NCBI GenBank assembly: GCA_018648805.1
Contig: JABGQM010000006.1
Coordinates: forward strand, 1-64,000
Origin: Verrucomicrobiota bacterium
GTDB lineage: Bacteria; Verrucomicrobiota; Kiritimatiellia; UBA8416; JABMPJ01
DNA length: 64,000 nucleotides
Direction of reading: 5' to 3'
Both the position numbers and the translations under genes were made by a program. The notes below the pieces were generated by a model. The model was not told the origin of the DNA. It saw nothing but the letters and a program-made list of their open reading frames with translations, and made no database searches. Of the stretch, positions 16,198-47,709 are shown in pieces. Positions within the stretch are counted from its first letter, which is position 1; every line of letters begins with the position of its first letter.

Positions 16198-17358
16198 TCA
16201 GGCGTCTGGTTCAATACGGAGTTCGGCGGGGGGCGTGACGGACCGTTCCACTTGCTCACCCAGGGACTGGAAGGCCGCGCAGTAATCGTAGGGGTAGCGG
16301 TAGACGCGCTGAGCGGGGTCGGTCAGGACATGCTCCCAAACGATCTCCTTCTCTGGGGTCACCTCAAACAGGCGGCGACACAATGACTCGAGGATCAGGG
16401 TGTTGCCATTGGGCAACCGCTGACAGTTGGCCGTGAAGCGGGCAAAGAAGCGATGTGCATCATCATATACCCAGACCAGGCTGTTATCACTGGGGTTGAT
16501 CTCCAGCACATACGAGCAGCCGCAGTGGGCCAAATCCACGAGGGGTGATGCGCCATTGTCAAAGACGATGATATGGCCGGCCCCGGGCAGGCCCTTCTCA
16601 ATCATATGCGGCTCATGCTGACCGGAGAGGCCGCCGTTGTAGTCGCCGGTATACGCCCAGACCACCTCGCCACTGTCACGGTCGATGATGCTGATGGTGT
16701 CGAGTTGGCGCAGGCTCTGCAGAATATTGCCCGGCTTGAAGCGGGCATCGCCGCCATCGTACCACTGGTTCTCCGGCAGTTCCTGTATGGTGTTGGTATG
16801 CGTCCAGTCGGCGACGGTATTGTTACCGGCCCCACCCATCCAGTTGAGGTTGGCCGGAATCTGATTGCACTGGTTGACGTCCATGTGCTCATGCTGAAGC
16901 CAGCGCCAGATCACCTCGCCCTCGCGGCTCACCTCAATCAGCTCATCCCCCGACACGCCGCCCTCACGGCGCTGCGGATCGGTGATGGTTGCCGCATACT
17001 CCGGCGGCACAGGAATGCAGCAGAGCAGAAAGACGGAACCGCGGTCGGTCGGCCAGAAGTCATGGTGCGCCCCATTCGCAGGCGTATAGGACCACGCCTC
17101 AGTACCATCCCAGTCAAATTCCGCCACATGCCCGGCAATATCCTTGCCGCCAAAGAGCAGCATCAGCTGGCCATTCGGCAGAAGCCGTGCGCGGTGGATA
17201 AAGCCCTTCTTGCCTTCCGGGTCGACCGGCCACGTATGCACCACCTCGCCATTCATATTGACCAACTTCACACTGCCGCTGGCGCCAATCAGGTTGTAGC
17301 CACCACTGCATGCCGCCGGTTTATAGAGGGTCGTGCCAATCGGGTATACGCTTTTCAT
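16198..17358 (-). CDS. Arylsulfotransferase (ASST)-like beta-propeller protein
   Basis: A 386-residue protein with repeated propeller blades rich in tryptophan and aspartate: VKLVNMNGEVVHTW, GHVAEFDWDGTEAWSY, HHDFWPTDRGSVFLL, DELIEVSREGEVIWRW, TISIIDRDSGEVVWAY, VLEINPSDNSLVWVY and RLFEVTPEKEIVWEHV. This is the ASST/PQQ-like propeller family, whose members transfer sulfate between phenols or serve as structural propellers. Conserved His residues (HHDFWP, HEPHMI, HTNTI) sit where ASST uses His for catalysis. The ATG at 17358 overlaps the preceding GH95 stop by four bases. A role in handling sulfated glycans is suggested by context only. Confidence 0.75.
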   Translation of the reverse strand: MKSVYPIGTTLYKPAACSGGYNLIGASGSVKLVNMNGEVVHTWPVDPEGKKGFIHRARLLPNGQLMLLFGGKDIAGHVAEFDWDGTEAWSYTPANGAHHDFWPTDRGSVFLLCCIPVPPEYAATITDPQRREGGVSGDELIEVSREGEVIWRWLQHEHMDVNQCNQIPANLNWMGGAGNNTVADWTHTNTIQELPENQWYDGGDARFKPGNILQSLRQLDTISIIDRDSGEVVWAYTGDYNGGLSGQHEPHMIEKGLPGAGHIIVFDNGASPLVDLAHCGCSYVLEINPSDNSLVWVYDDAHRFFARFTANCQRLPNGNTLILESLCRRLFEVTPEKEIVWEHVLTDPAQRVYRYPYDYCAAFQSLGEQVERSVTPPAELRIEPDA

Positions 17359-19841
17359 TCTTTGCCTTTTTGTTTTAGCTCTCTTGATAACCAACATGAC
17401 TCGCCCTGCTGCAACTGCAGCCCTATGGAGAGCTCGCCGTACTCGATCAAGCAGGTGCGGTCGAGCAGACTGGTGATGTTGACGGATTCGAGTTTGCCAT
17501 TCTGCCATGAGACATCGACCTCAAACCCACCACGGCAGCGCACACCGCGCAAGCGCCCTTGGACCCACGCATCCGGCAGACACGGAAGCAGGCGAATCAC
17601 CCAGGGCTCACCCGGCGTCTCCGGCAGCAGCGACTGCACCAGCATCGTGATGATGACCGCCGGCAGACCGCCGGAAATGTCCATATTGAGGACATCGCAG
17701 TGGTTATGCTGTGAGACCATCACCGGCGACCAATAGCTGTTCACCAGATACTCGACACACTCATAGGCCAACGCCCTGTCGCCAAGATGAGCAGAGGCCA
17801 TCCCCAACTGGGTCAACCCGAAGGCCATGAAACCACCATGCTCGGGACGCCGGAACACCAGGCGCTGATCAATCGCCACGCGACACGCCTCCTGCAGATC
17901 GGCACTGGCCGCGATCTCAGGAGCCACTCCATCATAGAGCGGGTAAAGGTGCGAGGCATGCCGATGGGCCTCCTCATTCTCAATCCCCGGCCAGCACCAC
18001 TCCTTCAATGCCCCATTGGCCCCGATCTGGTAGGCCGGCATCTTGGCCCGCATCCCCTGCCATGTCGCCACTTGTGCGTCGTCAACCCCGAGCTTGTCCG
18101 ATAACCGCAGCACGGTCCTCAGGATCTGTTTGATCGCGGCAATGGTCATCGTGGGATTCGGTGCCATCCAGATATTGTCGGCGGTCTCATTCTCCGGCGA
18201 GGATGCGGGCGAGAGGACGTAGACCCCATCCTGCTCGAGGGTCAGATAATCCTCATAGAAGGCCACGGACTCCAGCAGGAAGGGCTTGAGGCGCGTTTCA
18301 AAGAACGTCTCATCGCCCGTATAGAGGTAGTAGTCATAGTACAGCTGAGCGAACCATGCCGCGCCCGCAAACCAGTAGATGCCGGGAAAGTCGTGTTGGT
18401 ATTGCTTGTAGGCCAGATAGTGGGTGCGACCATGCGTGCTGGATCGCCAGGGAATCAACGGACCGCGAAAGCCCAACAACTCCCGGGCATTCTGGCGGAA
18501 GTCATCCATCAGCGCGTCCATGTAGTCCATCAGGGACTCCATACACTCGAAATGGTTGCCGCAAAGGCTGGCGGCTACCATGGATTGTACATTCCCATTG
18601 AGGGTGTAGTCGCCCGACCAGCAGGGCTTCCACGTGCCGGTCCAGACCCCCTGCAAGGCGGGAGGCAGGTTGCCCGTACTGCTGATAATCCCATAGCGTG
18701 CACCGGCGAAGGCTTTCTCGACAAGGGCGGGCGAGGTGCAGCCGACCGACGACTCGGCCTGCAGGCTCTCTGTGCTGCGGCCCTGTCCATCAGGCGTCGA
18801 CAGCTGCAGTGAGCAACGATTGAAGAGTTCGCCGTGAATCTCGGCATGCGCCTCAAGCAGCGCGTCATAGTCGGCCTCGATCCGATCGATAGCCACGGCC
18901 TCATCTTCGAACGAGAGCTCCTCCCCGCGCCTGTCGGGGATCGTCCTGACGAGTAGCAGCAGCTCATCCGCATCGGTGATCGTGAGCTGCTCGCGTCCAG
19001 TCACGACCGCCCCACCCCGCGTGATCACGCGGGCCATGGTGCAACAGCCGTTGACGGGCTGCGACTCCCAGCGGCGCTGGAAGTGCATACGGTGCGTGAG
19101 CAACGTCTCAGAAACCGTCCCTTCACAACGGTCGATGGTCTTCTGATAGATGTCGTGATCTTTGGGGTCCGTCGGCGGGATATACTCGATCTCGCGCAGC
19201 CCGAGCGACAGGTTCAGTTTGCTGCCTGACGGGCTGTTCAGCCGGAGAACCATGACATCATCAGCACGCGAGTAGAAGAAGCGGCGATGATAGAGTCCGG
19301 TGGCATCCTGCCAGGCCGTGATCGCCTCACCCGATTCGAAATCGACCGACCGGACATAGCGTTCGTAGTCACACGCCGCCTGCATCAACAGATCCAGCGA
19401 GCAGGCCCCCACAAAGGGGTCGGTCGTGTTGTAACCGGGGACGTCTTTGTCCTGCTTCAACTTACGAATAAACGCCTGTGCCTCATCCGCTTTGCCGTCG
19501 CGGACCAGCTGCTGGATGGTGTCGTAAAGCGCTTTGACCGGCAGATAGCCGTGATCGGGGAAGAGCGGCAGAAAGAGTTCCTCATGGCTCAAGACCAGCT
19601 CTTCGGCGCTGGTTCGGCAGAACGCCAGCGCGCCCTGCCTGCCGTTGCCGACGACCGTGCCGAAGTCCCACTTCCGCGCCGGCTCCAGGCAGACGCACCC
19701 GCGGCGTGGATAGGCCACCTGCAGCTGCTGCAGCAGCGCCAGCTCCCTCGCCTCGACCTCTCCAGGCTCTCGCACCATATTCACGCCTCGTGCCCCGCTA
19801 TAAACTTCTGGCGCTTCCGGGATTTGCGGGTGTTTTTTCAT
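17355..19841 (-). CDS. GH95-family alpha-L-fucosidase/galactosidase
   Basis: An ~828-residue GH95 enzyme. The N-terminal part matches the family opening (WDFGTVVGNGRQGALAF, LSHEELFLP). The (alpha/alpha)6 catalytic region shows LPPALQGVWTGTWKPCWSGDYTLNGNVQSMV, EEAHRHASHLYPLYDG, FMAFGLTQLGMASAHLGD and NMDISGGLPAVIITMLVQS, then a C-terminal domain (RLRGVRCRGGFEVDVSWQNG). It inverts fucosidic (or galactosidic) linkages. The start is uncertain: ATG 19841 is used here, while ATG 19778 has a better ribosome site (GAGGCG). No clear signal peptide. It is the first gene of the leftward cluster and lies downstream of the repeat array at 19872. Confidence 0.88.
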   Translation of the reverse strand: MKKHPQIPEAPEVYSGARGVNMVREPGEVEARELALLQQLQVAYPRRGCVCLEPARKWDFGTVVGNGRQGALAFCRTSAEELVLSHEELFLPLFPDHGYLPVKALYDTIQQLVRDGKADEAQAFIRKLKQDKDVPGYNTTDPFVGACSLDLLMQAACDYERYVRSVDFESGEAITAWQDATGLYHRRFFYSRADDVMVLRLNSPSGSKLNLSLGLREIEYIPPTDPKDHDIYQKTIDRCEGTVSETLLTHRMHFQRRWESQPVNGCCTMARVITRGGAVVTGREQLTITDADELLLLVRTIPDRRGEELSFEDEAVAIDRIEADYDALLEAHAEIHGELFNRCSLQLSTPDGQGRSTESLQAESSVGCTSPALVEKAFAGARYGIISSTGNLPPALQGVWTGTWKPCWSGDYTLNGNVQSMVAASLCGNHFECMESLMDYMDALMDDFRQNARELLGFRGPLIPWRSSTHGRTHYLAYKQYQHDFPGIYWFAGAAWFAQLYYDYYLYTGDETFFETRLKPFLLESVAFYEDYLTLEQDGVYVLSPASSPENETADNIWMAPNPTMTIAAIKQILRTVLRLSDKLGVDDAQVATWQGMRAKMPAYQIGANGALKEWCWPGIENEEAHRHASHLYPLYDGVAPEIAASADLQEACRVAIDQRLVFRRPEHGGFMAFGLTQLGMASAHLGDRALAYECVEYLVNSYWSPVMVSQHNHCDVLNMDISGGLPAVIITMLVQSLLPETPGEPWVIRLLPCLPDAWVQGRLRGVRCRGGFEVDVSWQNGKLESVNITSLLDRTCLIEYGELSIGLQLQQGESCWLSRELKQKGKE

Positions 19842-19871
19842 TGGCCTATATGCAGATACACTCTCACACAA

Positions 19872-20045
19872 TCCGGTTAAGTCAGGCGATTAAGCGTATC
19901 CAAGTAAGTGTTGCGGTTAAGAGTGCGACGAAGTGTACGCTTAAGTGTGTGCGCTGCGCTCTCCATACACCTTCTCGGACACTTAACCGCTTCCTTAACC
20001 GCTACCCTTACCCGGTTACCCTTAACCGATCAACTTACACGATCC
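19872..20045. repeat. Inverted array of GNTTAAG units at 12-14 bp spacing
   Basis: Rightward TTAAG-like units lie at 19877, 19890, 19904, 19917, 19929 and 19941, and leftward units (CTTAA-like) at 20034, 20021, 20007, 19994 and 19982, with a weaker one at 19971. The spacing from the outside inward is 13, 14, 13, 12 in both arms. The consensus is roughly GCGGTTAAGTGTA. The 174-base palindromic array fills the space between the GH95 gene and the histidine kinase promoter. It could be an operator array for both directions or a miniature transposon with multi-site ends. Confidence 0.75.
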
Positions 20046-20174
20046 CTATCCGCCTCCGTCCAGAACGCGATTCATCAATAGAAAATCCCCCGCTAATACC
20101 TGAAGAGCCTTTTTTTGTGCCCTCTTTTGGGGGCCTTTGAGCAGGACGTATAGTCACGTTTCGCGGGTTTAACA

Positions 20175-20212: not shown

Positions 20213-21835
20213 ATGAGTACAGCAAAGGATAGTCTATCCCGTAGTCGCCATTCGAGCAGCACCATGCGCATTGATATGGATGCGGTTTTGGGTGATACCG
20301 TGCGTGGGCCTGAGCGGTCGGTTGTTGATCGGTCGGTTCCGGACGATGAGCGTGGCGGTAGCGGTGGGGAATCTACGTTTGCGGCCCTTTTGCAGAGCAT
20401 TTACGATGGGGTCCTGATCGCGGCACCCAACGGGCGCATTATGGAATATAATTCGCGCGCCGTGGAGTTGCTGGGGGGTGGGCGTGACTACCTCGATGGC
20501 AGTGATGTGATGAAGCTGATCTCGGGGGCCGATACCGCGCTCTGGGAAGCGCTGCGTAAGAACCTGGATGACCGCCGCTACACATTGCTGGAAGCACGTG
20601 TCATCCGGTTTGATGGGTCGAGTTTCCCGGCTGAAATCGCAGTAAACTGGATGACACACGGGACTTCCGGGCGTCTCTGTTTCTTTATTCGTGATATCTC
20701 GATTCGCAAGCAGGCTCAGGAGGCGCTCGAAGATGCCGTGGCGCGTCTGGAGGAGCACGACCGCGCGCGCATGCAGTTTGTATCCAATGTGTCGCACGAG
20801 CTGCGCACCCCGCTGACCTCTATGATCTACGCTGTGGCCAACATGTTGCGCGGCGTACTGGGGCCGATTTCGGATCCTGTCCGCAAGTATCTGACGATGC
20901 TGGATGGCGATAGTAAGCGGTTGCTGACGACGGTGAACGATATTCTTGATCTGCGTAAGATTGAAAATGAGAGTCTGACGCTGACCCGGGCCACGATCCC
21001 CTTTGGCCGTCTGGTGTCGCGCAGCCTTGAGTCGCTGGCCGTGCGGACGCAGCAGAAAGGGGTTGCGTTCAGCGTGGATCCGGGCGCGTCGGGTCTGTTT
21101 GCAGACTGCGACCCACAGCGCATGGAGCGGGTCGTGCTCAATATTGTGGGCAACGCGGTGAAATTCACACCCGAGGGCGGGACGATTGCGGTCACGGTGA
21201 CGGATGATAGCGCCAATGAGGGGTGCCTCCGCCTGGAAGTGCGCGACAGCGGGATTGGCATTCCGCCGGATGCGTTGGACCGGGTGACGGAGCGCTATTT
21301 CACGGTGGGCAAGCAGCCGAGCGGATCGGGGCTGGGCTTGGCCATCGTCAAGGAGATCGTGGCGCTGCATGGTGGTAGTATTGGAATTCAGAGTCCGGTG
21401 CCGGGCGGAGACAGAGGAACGCTGGTCACCGTATCGCTGCCGCGCGTTGATCCACCGATCATTCTGCTGGCAGGAAGTGACGATTTCGTTTGCACCAAGC
21501 TGGGACAGCAATTGACCGCTGCGGGCTATCGGGTTATAAGGGGCGGTGACGGTGAGGATGCGCAGCACATCGTTGAGCACCGTCGCTTCCATGGCGCCGT
21601 TGTGGGGCTGGGTATGGAAGGCATGTCCGGGACGGAACTGATTCTCAAGATGAAAAGTGACCGGCGACTGAGGACGACGCCGTTGATCGCGATCGGGGGC
21701 GCGGGTCTGAACAAGGCGCGCGAGCAGATCTTGAAGAGTTTTTCGATTCCTTTGGTTCCACGCCACTGGACAGAGACCATGCTGCTGGACCGAATTGAGG
21801 AGGCCTTTCTGGGGCCGATGGCTATGATGAAATAG
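20213..21835 (+). CDS. PAS-domain hybrid histidine kinase with degenerate receiver
   Basis: A 540-residue cytoplasmic kinase. Residues ~55-170 are a PAS domain (LLQSIYDGVLIAAPNGRIMEYN); ~180-250 form the dimerisation domain with the phospho-acceptor His195 in SNVSHELRTPLTSM; ~290-410 form the ATP-binding domain with N box LNIVGNAVKFT, G1 box VRDSGIGIPP and G2 box GSGLGLAIVKEIVALHGG. The C-terminal ~110 residues resemble a receiver, but the phospho-Asp position is Gly (GAVVGLGMEGMSG), so this part cannot be phosphorylated in the normal way. No membrane segments are present. The double-receiver regulator gene follows and is the likely partner. Confidence 0.9.
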   Translation: MSTAKDSLSRSRHSSSTMRIDMDAVLGDTVRGPERSVVDRSVPDDERGGSGGESTFAALLQSIYDGVLIAAPNGRIMEYNSRAVELLGGGRDYLDGSDVMKLISGADTALWEALRKNLDDRRYTLLEARVIRFDGSSFPAEIAVNWMTHGTSGRLCFFIRDISIRKQAQEALEDAVARLEEHDRARMQFVSNVSHELRTPLTSMIYAVANMLRGVLGPISDPVRKYLTMLDGDSKRLLTTVNDILDLRKIENESLTLTRATIPFGRLVSRSLESLAVRTQQKGVAFSVDPGASGLFADCDPQRMERVVLNIVGNAVKFTPEGGTIAVTVTDDSANEGCLRLEVRDSGIGIPPDALDRVTERYFTVGKQPSGSGLGLAIVKEIVALHGGSIGIQSPVPGGDRGTLVTVSLPRVDPPIILLAGSDDFVCTKLGQQLTAAGYRVIRGGDGEDAQHIVEHRRFHGAVVGLGMEGMSGTELILKMKSDRRLRTTPLIAIGGAGLNKAREQILKSFSIPLVPRHWTETMLLDRIEEAFLGPMAMMK

Positions 21836-32331: not shown

Positions 32332-32460
32332 GTACGAACATTCGAACAGCCGAACATTCGAACTACGAAGTGGGACGCCAACGGGCCGGGCAATGAATGG
32401 CCATCGGTTTCCCCGTTCGTAGTTCGGCTGTTCGAATGTTCGATTGCTCGGCTGTTCGCC
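32332..32460. repeat. Palindromic element with 8-bp GAAC/GTTC units (copy 1)
   Basis: GAAC occurs every eight bases at 32336, 32344, 32352 and 32360, ending in GAACTACGAAG; the right arm has GTTC every eight bases at 32422, 32430, 32438 and 32454 (one unit decayed to GCTC at 32446). The core between the arms (about 40 bases with GGGCCGGGCAATGAATGG) is shared with 37582-37721. No gene lies here; the space up to the ilvE start at 32575 holds nothing else recognisable. Confidence 0.85.
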
Positions 32461-32574
32461 TGCTCCGGAGCGGTTTTACAGCTTGAGTGTTGGCGGGGGG
32501 GGATCTATCCTTGTCGACTTGTGGAAAAGCCCTGCCTGTGCGGGGCGTTGTTGTGTTGTAGAGAGGGGCTTGAG

Positions 32575-37581: not shown

Positions 37582-37721
37582 GAACAGCCGAACATTCGAA
37601 CAGCCGAACATTCGAACTACGAAGTGGGGACGCGACCGGGCCGGGCAATGAATGGCCATCGGTTTCCCCTTTCGTAGTTCGGCTGTTCGATTGTTCGGCT
37701 GTTCGAATGTTCGTAGTTCGA
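37582..37721. repeat. Palindromic element with 8-bp GAAC/GTTC units (copy 2)
   Basis: Five GAAC units at eight-base spacing (37582, 37590, 37598, 37606, 37614) and, in the right arm, GTTC at 37677, 37685, 37693, 37701, 37709 and 37716. Core sequence shared with 32332-32460 (GGCAATGAATGGCCATCGGT). It begins six bases after the clpC stop and ends six bases before the rpsP -35 box. Confidence 0.88.
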
Positions 37722-37727
37722 TAAGGC

Positions 37728-40334: not shown

Positions 40335-40523
40335 GAACAATCGAACAGCCGAACAATCGAACAGCCGAACTACGAAGGGGCACAGGTCGCATCGGTACGG
40401 CGCTTCAAGCAGGGCACGGAGTGTATCGCCAGGGGAGCAGCACATGCATAGCAATAGGGGCTCCCGTTCCCCTTCGTAGTTCGATTGTTCGATTGTTCGA
40501 ATGTTCGGCTGTTCAATCGTTCA
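40335..40523. repeat. Palindromic element with 8-bp GAAC/GTTC units (copy 3)
   Basis: GAAC units at 40335, 40343, 40351, 40359 and 40367 (alternating GAACAATC and GAACAGCC), then GTTC at 40479, 40487, 40495, 40503, 40511 and 40519. The ~100-base core differs from copies 1 and 2 but keeps CTACGAAG/CTTCGTAG at the inner arm ends. It contains no gene. Confidence 0.88.
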
Positions 40524-45684: not shown

Positions 45685-47709
45685 CTAGCGGCGCTTGAGC
45701 AGTTTGGATCTTTCCTCGCTGCTGTCACGCTCTCTCTCGGCCTTGGCCGCTTCACTGATTTCATTGATCTCAGCCATGAACGCACGACGCTTGGCTTCGG
45801 CGGCGATGATATGACGGCGGGTCAGTTCGGTATTCTCCGGCAGGCCCGTCTCACGCAGGAGTGATTCCGGCATGGCCAGTCCGACCGATACAAAGATAAT
45901 GGTCTCTTCCTGGGACTTCTCTTTGTGCGTATGCGAGAAGAGGTACTTGCCCAGAAGGGGGATGTCGCCGAGGAGAGGGATCTTGGTTGTGACGTCACGG
46001 TCACTGGTTTCGGTGAGACCGCCGATGGCCACGGTCTTGCCGCTATCGAGCGAGAAAACCGTTGAGATGGTCTTACGCGCAATGATGGGATAGGTCTGAC
46101 CGTTGGGGGCGATCGCATCACTCAGGAAGCGCGTCAGCTCCGGTTCGATCTTGACCGTAATGTTGCTGGAGGTGTTGACGGTGGGGGTCACGGTGAGCTT
46201 GACGCCGAGATCAACCGGATCGCCCGGGTTATAGGTGACGACCGGGGCGATGCCCTGCTGCCCTGGCGTGACGCTGGAGATAAAGGGGCGCTCGGTCTGC
46301 CCGATGTGAATCGTGGCCGACTCTTCGTTGGCGACGATGATCTTCGGGTTGGACACCACGCTGATGCCGCTCATCTGTTTGAGGGCACTCAGGACCAGCT
46401 GGAAATCGGCCGCGCTTAGCACCGCGGTACGTGCATCCCCGATGGTCTTGGTGAAGGTCGAGGTCACATCCGAGGCGAGGTCGGAGCCCGAATCAATCGT
46501 ATCCGTAAGGGTACGCGTAGGCGTGATGCTCGACTGTGAAATGAAGTTACCTGACTCGGGCGGGGATTCCAGGAATTCGAGTGTTTCTTCCTGGTACTGA
46601 TCGCTGTAGATGTCGTACCGCTCGTTGACCAGATCGATCGCGCCACGATTGGAGCGTCGTGCGGCGGCATCGGCGCGCTGGTCTTCCCAGGTGCGGTTCT
46701 TGCTCAGATCAATCTTCATGCTTGAGGCTCCGATGCCGTAGCCGGAGAGGGCCTGCCAGTTGATGCCGAGATCCTTGATGGCTTGATCGTTCAGCTCCAT
46801 GAACTTGGCCTCGATAAAGACCTGGTCGCGTGGAATATCGATCTCCGTCACCAAGGTCTCGATTTCACCAAGGTTAGCCGGCGTGCTGCGCACCACCAGG
46901 GCATTCTTGGAGGGGAACTCGGAGGCCGTTCCGCCCGCGATCAACATGGACTTCACCACGGGTGACACGTTGGCCACGCTGGCGTACTTAAGAAAAAGGG
47001 TTTGGACCTTCATGGGCTCCGGGGTGCCGGCCGGGCGGGGGATGATGCGGTAGACCCCTGAGCCCGGTAGCTTTTCGTCCAGAGCCAGGCTGTGCATGTC
47101 GAGTATGGATTCCAACGCGGGTTTCCACTCCACATCGTTCAGGTTGACCGTCACACGGCCCTGCAGGTTGCTGGGGGTGGCGATGATGTTGGCCCCCGAG
47201 ATGCGTGTAAACATGCGGACTACATCCAGAATATCCACGTCGTCGAGGGTGATGCTGATCAGTTCGCTGCCGGCCTCGCGGTCGGGTGCAGAGAGATCCG
47301 CATCGGATTCATCTTCGAGCGTCAGGAAACCTGATGGCTCATCCGAGTCGTCGGTGGCGCGCGGGGCGGCCCTGTCCGGGGCGGCATCCACGTCGGCCGG
47401 GGGGGCGGCCATGGGGACAACAGGGGCAACAGGTGCCGCAGGCGCAACAGGGGCAGCGGGGGGCGGTGCCTCGCTCAGGGGCATCCCGTCGGGCGTGGTC
47501 ATAGCGTCGACCGGGGGGTCGGCTATGGGTGCCGCCGGAGCAACGGCTGCAGCCGGTGCAACGGGAGGCGGTTCCTCGCTCAGAGCCTTCCCGTCGGGCG
47601 TGGTCATGGCGTCGGCCGGGGGCATGTCCTGGGCGGTCAGCCATAGTGAGCCGACGACAAGTAGCGCGGCGGCGGCGGGCAGTAGTATATTTCTCAATGT
47701 GTGATTCAT
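45685..47709 (-). CDS. pilQ: Secretin, PilQ/GspD type
   Basis: A 674-residue outer-membrane secretin. There is a signal peptide (~1-26), then a Pro/Ala-rich region (~27-115) with two copies of DAMTTPDGxxLSExPPPxAP, an N0/STN-like domain (ISITLDDVDILDVVRMFTRISGANIIATPSNLQGRVTV), an N1-like domain (VSPVVKSMLIAGGTASEFPSKNALVVRSTPANLGEIETLV), and the secretin core ending with KTISTVFSLDSGKTVAIGGLTET and DIPLLGKYLFSH. It is the pore of a type IV pilus or type II system. It is preceded by the Ig-like lipoprotein gene and pilMNOP. Confidence 0.92.
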   Translation of the reverse strand: MNHTLRNILLPAAAALLVVGSLWLTAQDMPPADAMTTPDGKALSEEPPPVAPAAAVAPAAPIADPPVDAMTTPDGMPLSEAPPPAAPVAPAAPVAPVVPMAAPPADVDAAPDRAAPRATDDSDEPSGFLTLEDESDADLSAPDREAGSELISITLDDVDILDVVRMFTRISGANIIATPSNLQGRVTVNLNDVEWKPALESILDMHSLALDEKLPGSGVYRIIPRPAGTPEPMKVQTLFLKYASVANVSPVVKSMLIAGGTASEFPSKNALVVRSTPANLGEIETLVTEIDIPRDQVFIEAKFMELNDQAIKDLGINWQALSGYGIGASSMKIDLSKNRTWEDQRADAAARRSNRGAIDLVNERYDIYSDQYQEETLEFLESPPESGNFISQSSITPTRTLTDTIDSGSDLASDVTSTFTKTIGDARTAVLSAADFQLVLSALKQMSGISVVSNPKIIVANEESATIHIGQTERPFISSVTPGQQGIAPVVTYNPGDPVDLGVKLTVTPTVNTSSNITVKIEPELTRFLSDAIAPNGQTYPIIARKTISTVFSLDSGKTVAIGGLTETSDRDVTTKIPLLGDIPLLGKYLFSHTHKEKSQEETIIFVSVGLAMPESLLRETGLPENTELTRRHIIAAEAKRRAFMAEINEISEAAKAERERDSSEERSKLLKRR

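Follow-up and report, generated by a model that had tools for sequence, protein, structure and literature searches.

The window analysed here comprises 64,000 nucleotides from a Verrucomicrobiota bacterium (assembly GCA_018648805.1, contig JABGQM010000006.1, positions 1 to 64,000). In the gap between two divergent genes it contains a palindromic array of short repeated units, which raises the question of what this array is and where it came from. The original prediction offered two answers, a large regulatory array read by a multimeric DNA-binding protein or a miniature transposon with multi-site ends.

Structure of the array

The twelve claimed units are all present at the predicted places, six pointing right and six pointing left. 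The left array (19874-19951, + strand) consists of six units of about 13 bp with cores starting at 19878, 19891, 19905, 19918, 19930 and 19942 (steps of 13, 14, 13, 12 and 12). The six inverted units of the right array (19966-20041, - strand) have cores starting at 20034, 20021, 20007, 19994, 19982 and 19971 (inward steps of 13, 14, 13, 12 and 11); the outer limits of both arrays were set by eye. Counted from the outside, the claimed order 13-14-13-12 is exactly mirrored. Since one arm is roughly an inverted copy of the other, the mirroring of the steps should not be counted as an additional, independent coincidence. The 14-bp step corresponds to a distinct spacer containing TATCC at the mirrored place in both arms (by eye), and an extra CTTC is found at 19990 within a spacer of the right array. 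The 174 bp contain 4+3 copies of the strict motif GNTTAAG/CTTAANC, compared to a mean of 0.17 and a maximum of 2 in 2000 dinucleotide shuffles of this region. Not one of the 2000 shuffles contained seven or more strict units, which rules out the chance origin already regarded as unlikely.

On its left side the array is flanked by an ORF encoding a glycoside hydrolase of family 95 (GH95; 17355-19871, - strand) and on its right side by the gene of a PAS/HisKA/HATPase histidine kinase (20213-21835, + strand). It is not located in a 23S rRNA gene. Rfam gave no entry at this site and only two tRNAs in the window.

Dispersed copies in the genome and in relatives

A search of the genome to which the window belongs (G000, 4.85 Mb in 138 contigs) with the array region gave 59 matches (40 of the 94 candidates were scored). 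Manual merging reduces these to about 40 places including the window. At least four of them are contig ends, so that some places may be halves of one copy. Matches were also found in 22 of 37 relatives; the region is therefore not unique DNA in related genomes. Alignment of the copies revealed a gene-less element of 300 bp at 19810-20109 (no strand assigned). The limits first given, 19872-20045, enclose the array and are too narrow for the element. Five other copies share 90-91% identity with it, four of them along positions 1-300 and the fifth along 15-300. Because the listed GH95 ORF runs into the element, the gene probably starts at an internal ATG near 19778.

The copy alignment, an end pattern and an end scan agree that the family has terminal inverted repeats, and that these are imperfect. 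The left repeat at the window, GGCGCTTCCGGGATTTGCGGGTG (19810-19832, + strand), fits the family end pattern with at most 3 mismatches, a threshold at which this pattern gives 39 matches in the genome and its reversed control none. The imperfect right repeat (20089-20109, - strand) was placed by the copy alignment and by the end scan with 3 mismatches in 21 bases. Eight of the 22 elements with both ends are bordered by an 8-bp target duplication (7 or 8 of 8 bases matching), compared to an expectation of 0.37 when the flanks are permuted. The copy at the window retains none (2 of 8 flank bases match).

By eye, identical ends enclose arrays of the GGTTAAG, GACGAAG or GACAACGATC type or almost nothing (145 bp). 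Furthermore, the GGTTAAG array is found between other ends, namely those of the TGCCACGACATCG, GGTTCTGTCAAAAG and GTCAACATTTGAACG types (by eye). Arrays and ends are exchangeable among these elements.

The window contains a second gene-less family. Inverted arrays of 8-bp CGAACANN units are located at 32335-32465, 37582-37722 and 40335-40522 (no strand assigned), and a search with one such array gave 110 matches in G000. No target duplication was seen in this family. Its unit also flanks a gene of the PF05635 family described below (locus L123, contig C66). Several copies seem to start at a stop codon; the one at 40335-40522 begins four bases past a TAA (both observations frame-blind). About a dozen of these elements lie within 41 kb of contig C58 (13962-55139).

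A gene for a four-helix-bundle protein lies between inverted arrays

At one of the matches, on contig C18, the two arrays are about 770 bp apart and enclose an ORF. The encoded protein belongs to PF05635, the 23S rRNA-intervening sequence protein, a four-helix bundle with relatives 2gsc and 2rld in the PDB. G000 gave 21 hits to this family at 13 loci. A home-made profile confirmed 12 of these; the weak hit L142, missed by the profile, was not counted. At all 12 confirmed loci inverted arrays of short units flank the gene, with about nine or ten different units among them.

Two of these loci carry GGTTAAG-type arrays. The C18 locus (L126) shows GGTTAAG arrays, with the unit of the window element, around a two-domain PF05635 gene; one of its ends is within 4 mismatches of the 23-base family end pattern and the other is cut by the contig. 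On contig C47 (L128), an element of about 950 bp is complete at both ends, with a 29-bp outer inverted repeat of 96% identity and an exact 8-bp duplication, ACAACTCT. Its GGTTAAG-type arrays surround a PF05635 gene whose first domain is split over frames, and which appears to be a disrupted two-domain gene. At L125 on contig C77 the outer repeat is of another kind, with the 5-bp duplication GAATG (by eye).

Hits of the four-helix protein to bAvd and DivGenRetAVD, below the cut-offs of these models, point to a distant relationship to Avd of diversity-generating retroelements. A search of phage records with one four-helix protein gave no match at E 0.01. The structure of the two-domain protein, predicted without alignment, had a mean pLDDT of 39.5 and was discarded.

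The pairing occurs in many phyla

A scan of GTDB contigs with six PF05635 proteins gave at least 566 confirmed loci, the best 80 of which were used and belong to many phyla. Two 250-bp flanks per locus were compared, and 10 of 121 loci with short flanks were left out. Inverted similarity between the flanks exceeded the 95th percentile of mismatched flanks at 92 of 111 loci, i.e. at 11 of 12 from G000, 16 of 24 from relatives and 65 of 75 from the database (the latter from the best 80 of at least 566). L128 fails this test, its arrays being located beyond the 250 bp used. As a further control, windows 750 bp further out at the same loci were taken for the 132 loci having all four windows. Inverted similarity was above the 99th percentile of these distant windows at 105 of the 132 loci and not above it at 27; tandem repetition in the weaker flank exceeded the 99th percentile at 91.

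Among plasmid records 41 were found and 12 read. The left array is visible in all 12 loci; the inverted right array is clear in nine, short in L314 and L316 and not evident in L319. Comparison of homologous plasmids revealed empty sites. In the Nostoc plasmids L306 and L307 a gene with GGGAACA arrays is inserted between a TraM-like gene and the one that follows; this insertion is absent from the homologous plasmids L308 and L313, and L309 carries gene-less inverted arrays at the same place. The Calothrix plasmids L304 and L305 contain a gene with GGGTGTA arrays between an integrase gene and the next gene, and three related plasmids (L310-L312) are empty there. These cyanobacterial insertions have no outer repeats and no target duplication, and they take the place of some 12 to 42 bases present in the empty site. 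As target duplications thus differ, with 8 bp in some copies of the 300-bp family and none on the plasmids or in the family with 8-bp units, one insertion mechanism does not fit all of these elements.

Two plasmid loci are located in CRISPR-Cas operons. The four-helix gene of an Anabaena sp. 90 plasmid (L319) lies between cas6 and cas4, and that of a Picosynechococcus plasmid (L320) between cas10/cmr2 and a cmr3-family gene. A figure legend of PMC10910872 names '23S rRNA IVP' among CRISPR-linked domains, an entry that insertions of this kind may explain.

Unit length follows the number of domains

A clear period was present at 124 loci and absent from 37. Two-domain proteins were accompanied by units of 12-13 bp in 15 of 16 cases, one-domain proteins by units of 6-8 bp in 106 of 108, with periods of 14 and 16 counted as 7 and 8 but 12 not counted as 6. 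The exceptions are L209 and L273 (one domain, 12-13 bp) and L257 (two domains, 14 bp). Adding L128, which has a 14-bp period in a wider window, and removing L196 (same record as L144) left the counts by domain and period unchanged. Without a threshold the best period was 12 or 13 in 21 of 26 two-domain loci (11, 14, 15, 15 and 18 in the rest) and 6-8 or 14-16 bp in 129 of 137 one-domain rows; in this unselected set, 4 of the 26 two-domain loci do not beat their own shuffles.

When the period label is mapped on a tree of the 124 proteins, 24 changes are required, compared to 53.3 for shuffled labels, with 0 of 200 shuffles as low. The two-domain proteins fall into one or two clades, next to one-domain proteins whose units are 6 bp long (L168, L169); the doubling thus reflects one or two events and not many. 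Similarity of units and similarity of proteins are correlated over 145 loci (Mantel r 0.27, 0 of 2000 permutations), a link that common descent of whole elements could explain as well.

GGGAATC and TAACTGA repeats

Arrays of GGGAATC in Xanthomonas, often as inverted pairs, and of GGGGA(C/T)T in Nostoc are described in passages of PMC4692102 as over-represented in non-coding DNA; a term search of its text returned neither S23 nor helix bundle. If such repeats belong to the elements described here, GGGAATC should flank a PF05635 gene. Of 369 genomes taken from a single class, one (G406) contains three exact tandem GGGAATC units. The only PF05635 hit of this genome (L328) is located between accB- and accC-like genes. 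GGGAATC units precede it, inverted GATTCCC units follow it, and near-copies lie between these units. The prediction thus held in G406. As the profile match covers positions 1-64 only, the gene looks broken. A gene-less GGGAATC pair of the same genome shares GTTCAAGC with L328 just inside the array.

The corresponding test with TAACTGA, which according to sections of PMC4679880 forms short-unit intergenic arrays in Beggiatoaceae, Cyanobacteria and Bacteroidetes, failed. Three tandem TAACTGA units were present in 4 of 59 cyanobacterial genomes (G039, G429, G431 and G449), but none of the seven PF05635 matches in these four genomes is flanked by tandem TAACTGA; G429 has no match at all. This speaks against a universal rule, or these arrays outlived their gene. 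One TAACTGA locus (L336) reads as inverted pairs, with no four-helix gene beside it.

Origin of the array and possible function of its units

Taken at the window alone, the location in a divergent gap would suit a regulatory array for the sugar cluster or the histidine kinase operon. Matches at about 40 places of the genome, some of them with target duplications, argue against this first option of the original prediction; with copies this dispersed, regulation of the neighbours was rejected as the origin of the array and we regard it as very improbable. The second option fared better. The element is dispersed, has terminal inverted repeats and shows 8-bp duplications in 8 of 22 copies, which comes close to a miniature transposon with multi-site ends, but no ISL3-family transposase could be matched to it. 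As in MITEs there are terminal inverted repeats, and target duplications in those 8 of 22 copies, the window copy not being among them. Could it then be an ordinary MITE of a single insertion sequence family, with the array serving as a multi-site end of the transposase or as passive filler? The ISL3 family is a candidate, as its ends start with GG like those found here and it generates 8-bp duplications, and G000 contains three loci with ISL3-family transposases. Nevertheless, a search of this family gave no transposase with matching ends. The ends read at two of the three loci differ from those of the element, so the ISL3 loci were rejected as parents as far as ends were read; in addition, the present elements carry arrays inside. 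By eye, the array is also enclosed by three or more other types of end, and identical ends can enclose either of two other arrays or hardly any. Finally, such arrays flank PF05635 genes in many phyla, and on plasmids they do so without outer repeats. An ordinary MITE is therefore an improbable explanation, albeit a better one than neighbour regulation.

A more serious alternative is an RNA element, in which pairing of the two arrays in the transcript would place the gene in a loop and RNase III would excise the whole from operon messages. The protein family and the inverted layout are shared with the intervening sequence of 23S rRNA (sections of PMC4990558). The gene is oriented like its co-directional neighbours in 76 of 78 other loci, a rough count with strands called by ORF length and many loci uncallable, and like both annotated neighbours in all 12 plasmid loci, two pairs of which are homologous. 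Sense orientation would, however, also be expected if the gene needs a host promoter, and the array at the window sits between divergent genes. Folding was better than that of shuffled sequences (z -4.0 for the window element, -10.2 and -8.2 for two copies of the 8-bp family), which at the window is what an inverted repeat would give anyway. Among 75 loci whose arms each contain three or more units, matching of arm units in register was above unit shuffling in 37 and below in 35, although L259 and L261 are clearly in register. In the 8-bp family 12 of 68 were in register compared to 30% expected (21 parses, a few of them overlapping), and 23 copies of the element showed no covariation (term -0.08 kcal/mol). 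Columns conserved among the copies coincide for the most part with the unit cores and the TATCC spacer. These three observations, no in-register arms at most loci, no covariation and conserved cores and spacer, favour separate recognition sites over a maintained stem. They speak against a maintained RNA hairpin, and we consider the RNA element unlikely.

The reading we prefer, with a probability of roughly 0.7, is that the array at the window belongs to a gene-less, MITE-like derivative of an element composed of array, gene and inverted array, the units of which are read by a cognate, probably ring-forming protein. A full element would consist of an array of short units, a gene for a four-helix-bundle protein of the S23/23S-rRNA-IVP type and the same array inverted, each protein lineage having its own unit. 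Most likely the cognate protein recognises these units and reads them repeatedly; that this protein is a multimer is our best guess. A Xanthomonas S23 protein forms a homopentameric torus (part of PMC4990558), and a ring-shaped protein could plausibly read a repeated unit. The two inverted arrays might allow the protein to mark or pair the two ends of the element. In G000 the module sits inside terminal inverted repeats. There it was probably moved by a transposase acting in trans, as the outer inverted repeats are bordered by 8-bp duplications in some copies. We infer that the protein binds the units, that in this group it assembles into a ring and that its binding helps the element to move.

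Relation to known systems

The closest parallel is provided by the 23S rRNA intervening sequences. Sections of PMC4990558 describe an S23/PF05635 ORF between inverted repeats, as in the gene-bearing relatives of the window element, and tandem GACAGAT heptamers upstream of an S23 ORF, and give no known function for S23 proteins. In contrast to these sequences, which are inserted in rRNA genes, the array elements are found between protein genes, also exist as dispersed copies without a gene and in G000 often sit within transposon-like ends. With REPIN/RAYT systems (PMC3116915, relevant parts) they share dispersed gene-less inverted repeat pairs and a cognate gene beside them. The RAYT protein, however, is a Y1 tyrosine transposase and not a PF05635 four-helix bundle, and the repeats described here are tandem arrays of 6-13 bp units. 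The Xanthomonas GGGAATC and Nostoc GGGGA(C/T)T repeats (parts of PMC4692102) resemble them as arrays of short units, and here GGGAATC flanks a PF05635 gene. TAACTGA repeats are short-unit intergenic arrays as well, but differ in that they flank no PF05635 gene in the four genomes. Among the top matches listed for the open-access literature, none describes a pairing of S23/PF05635 genes with arrays.

A wider reading, which we find slightly more probable than the opposite, is that these elements form a widespread and so far unrecognised class of mobile elements, in which a gene for a ring-forming four-helix protein lies between inverted arrays of its own unit. Protein and unit would co-diversify and the number of domains would set the length of the unit; many intergenic repeats would be gene-less relics, and the rRNA intervening sequences would be members that landed in rRNA. 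If this is true, the rRNA intervening sequences join a larger family of mobile elements and many dispersed bacterial repeats gain an origin. If the proteins read units of a length given by their domain number, they would represent a new kind of repeat-reading protein. The pairing provides short-unit repeats and S23 proteins each with a testable partner, and at least one unexplained bacterial repeat, GGGAATC, gains a partner gene.

Further repeats and transposase remnants in the window

A partial ISL3-family transposase is located at the contig start (15-404); by eye, its right end looks unlike that of the 300-bp element. At 47423-47622 the window contains an imperfect tandem repeat of 105 bp in about 1.9 copies.
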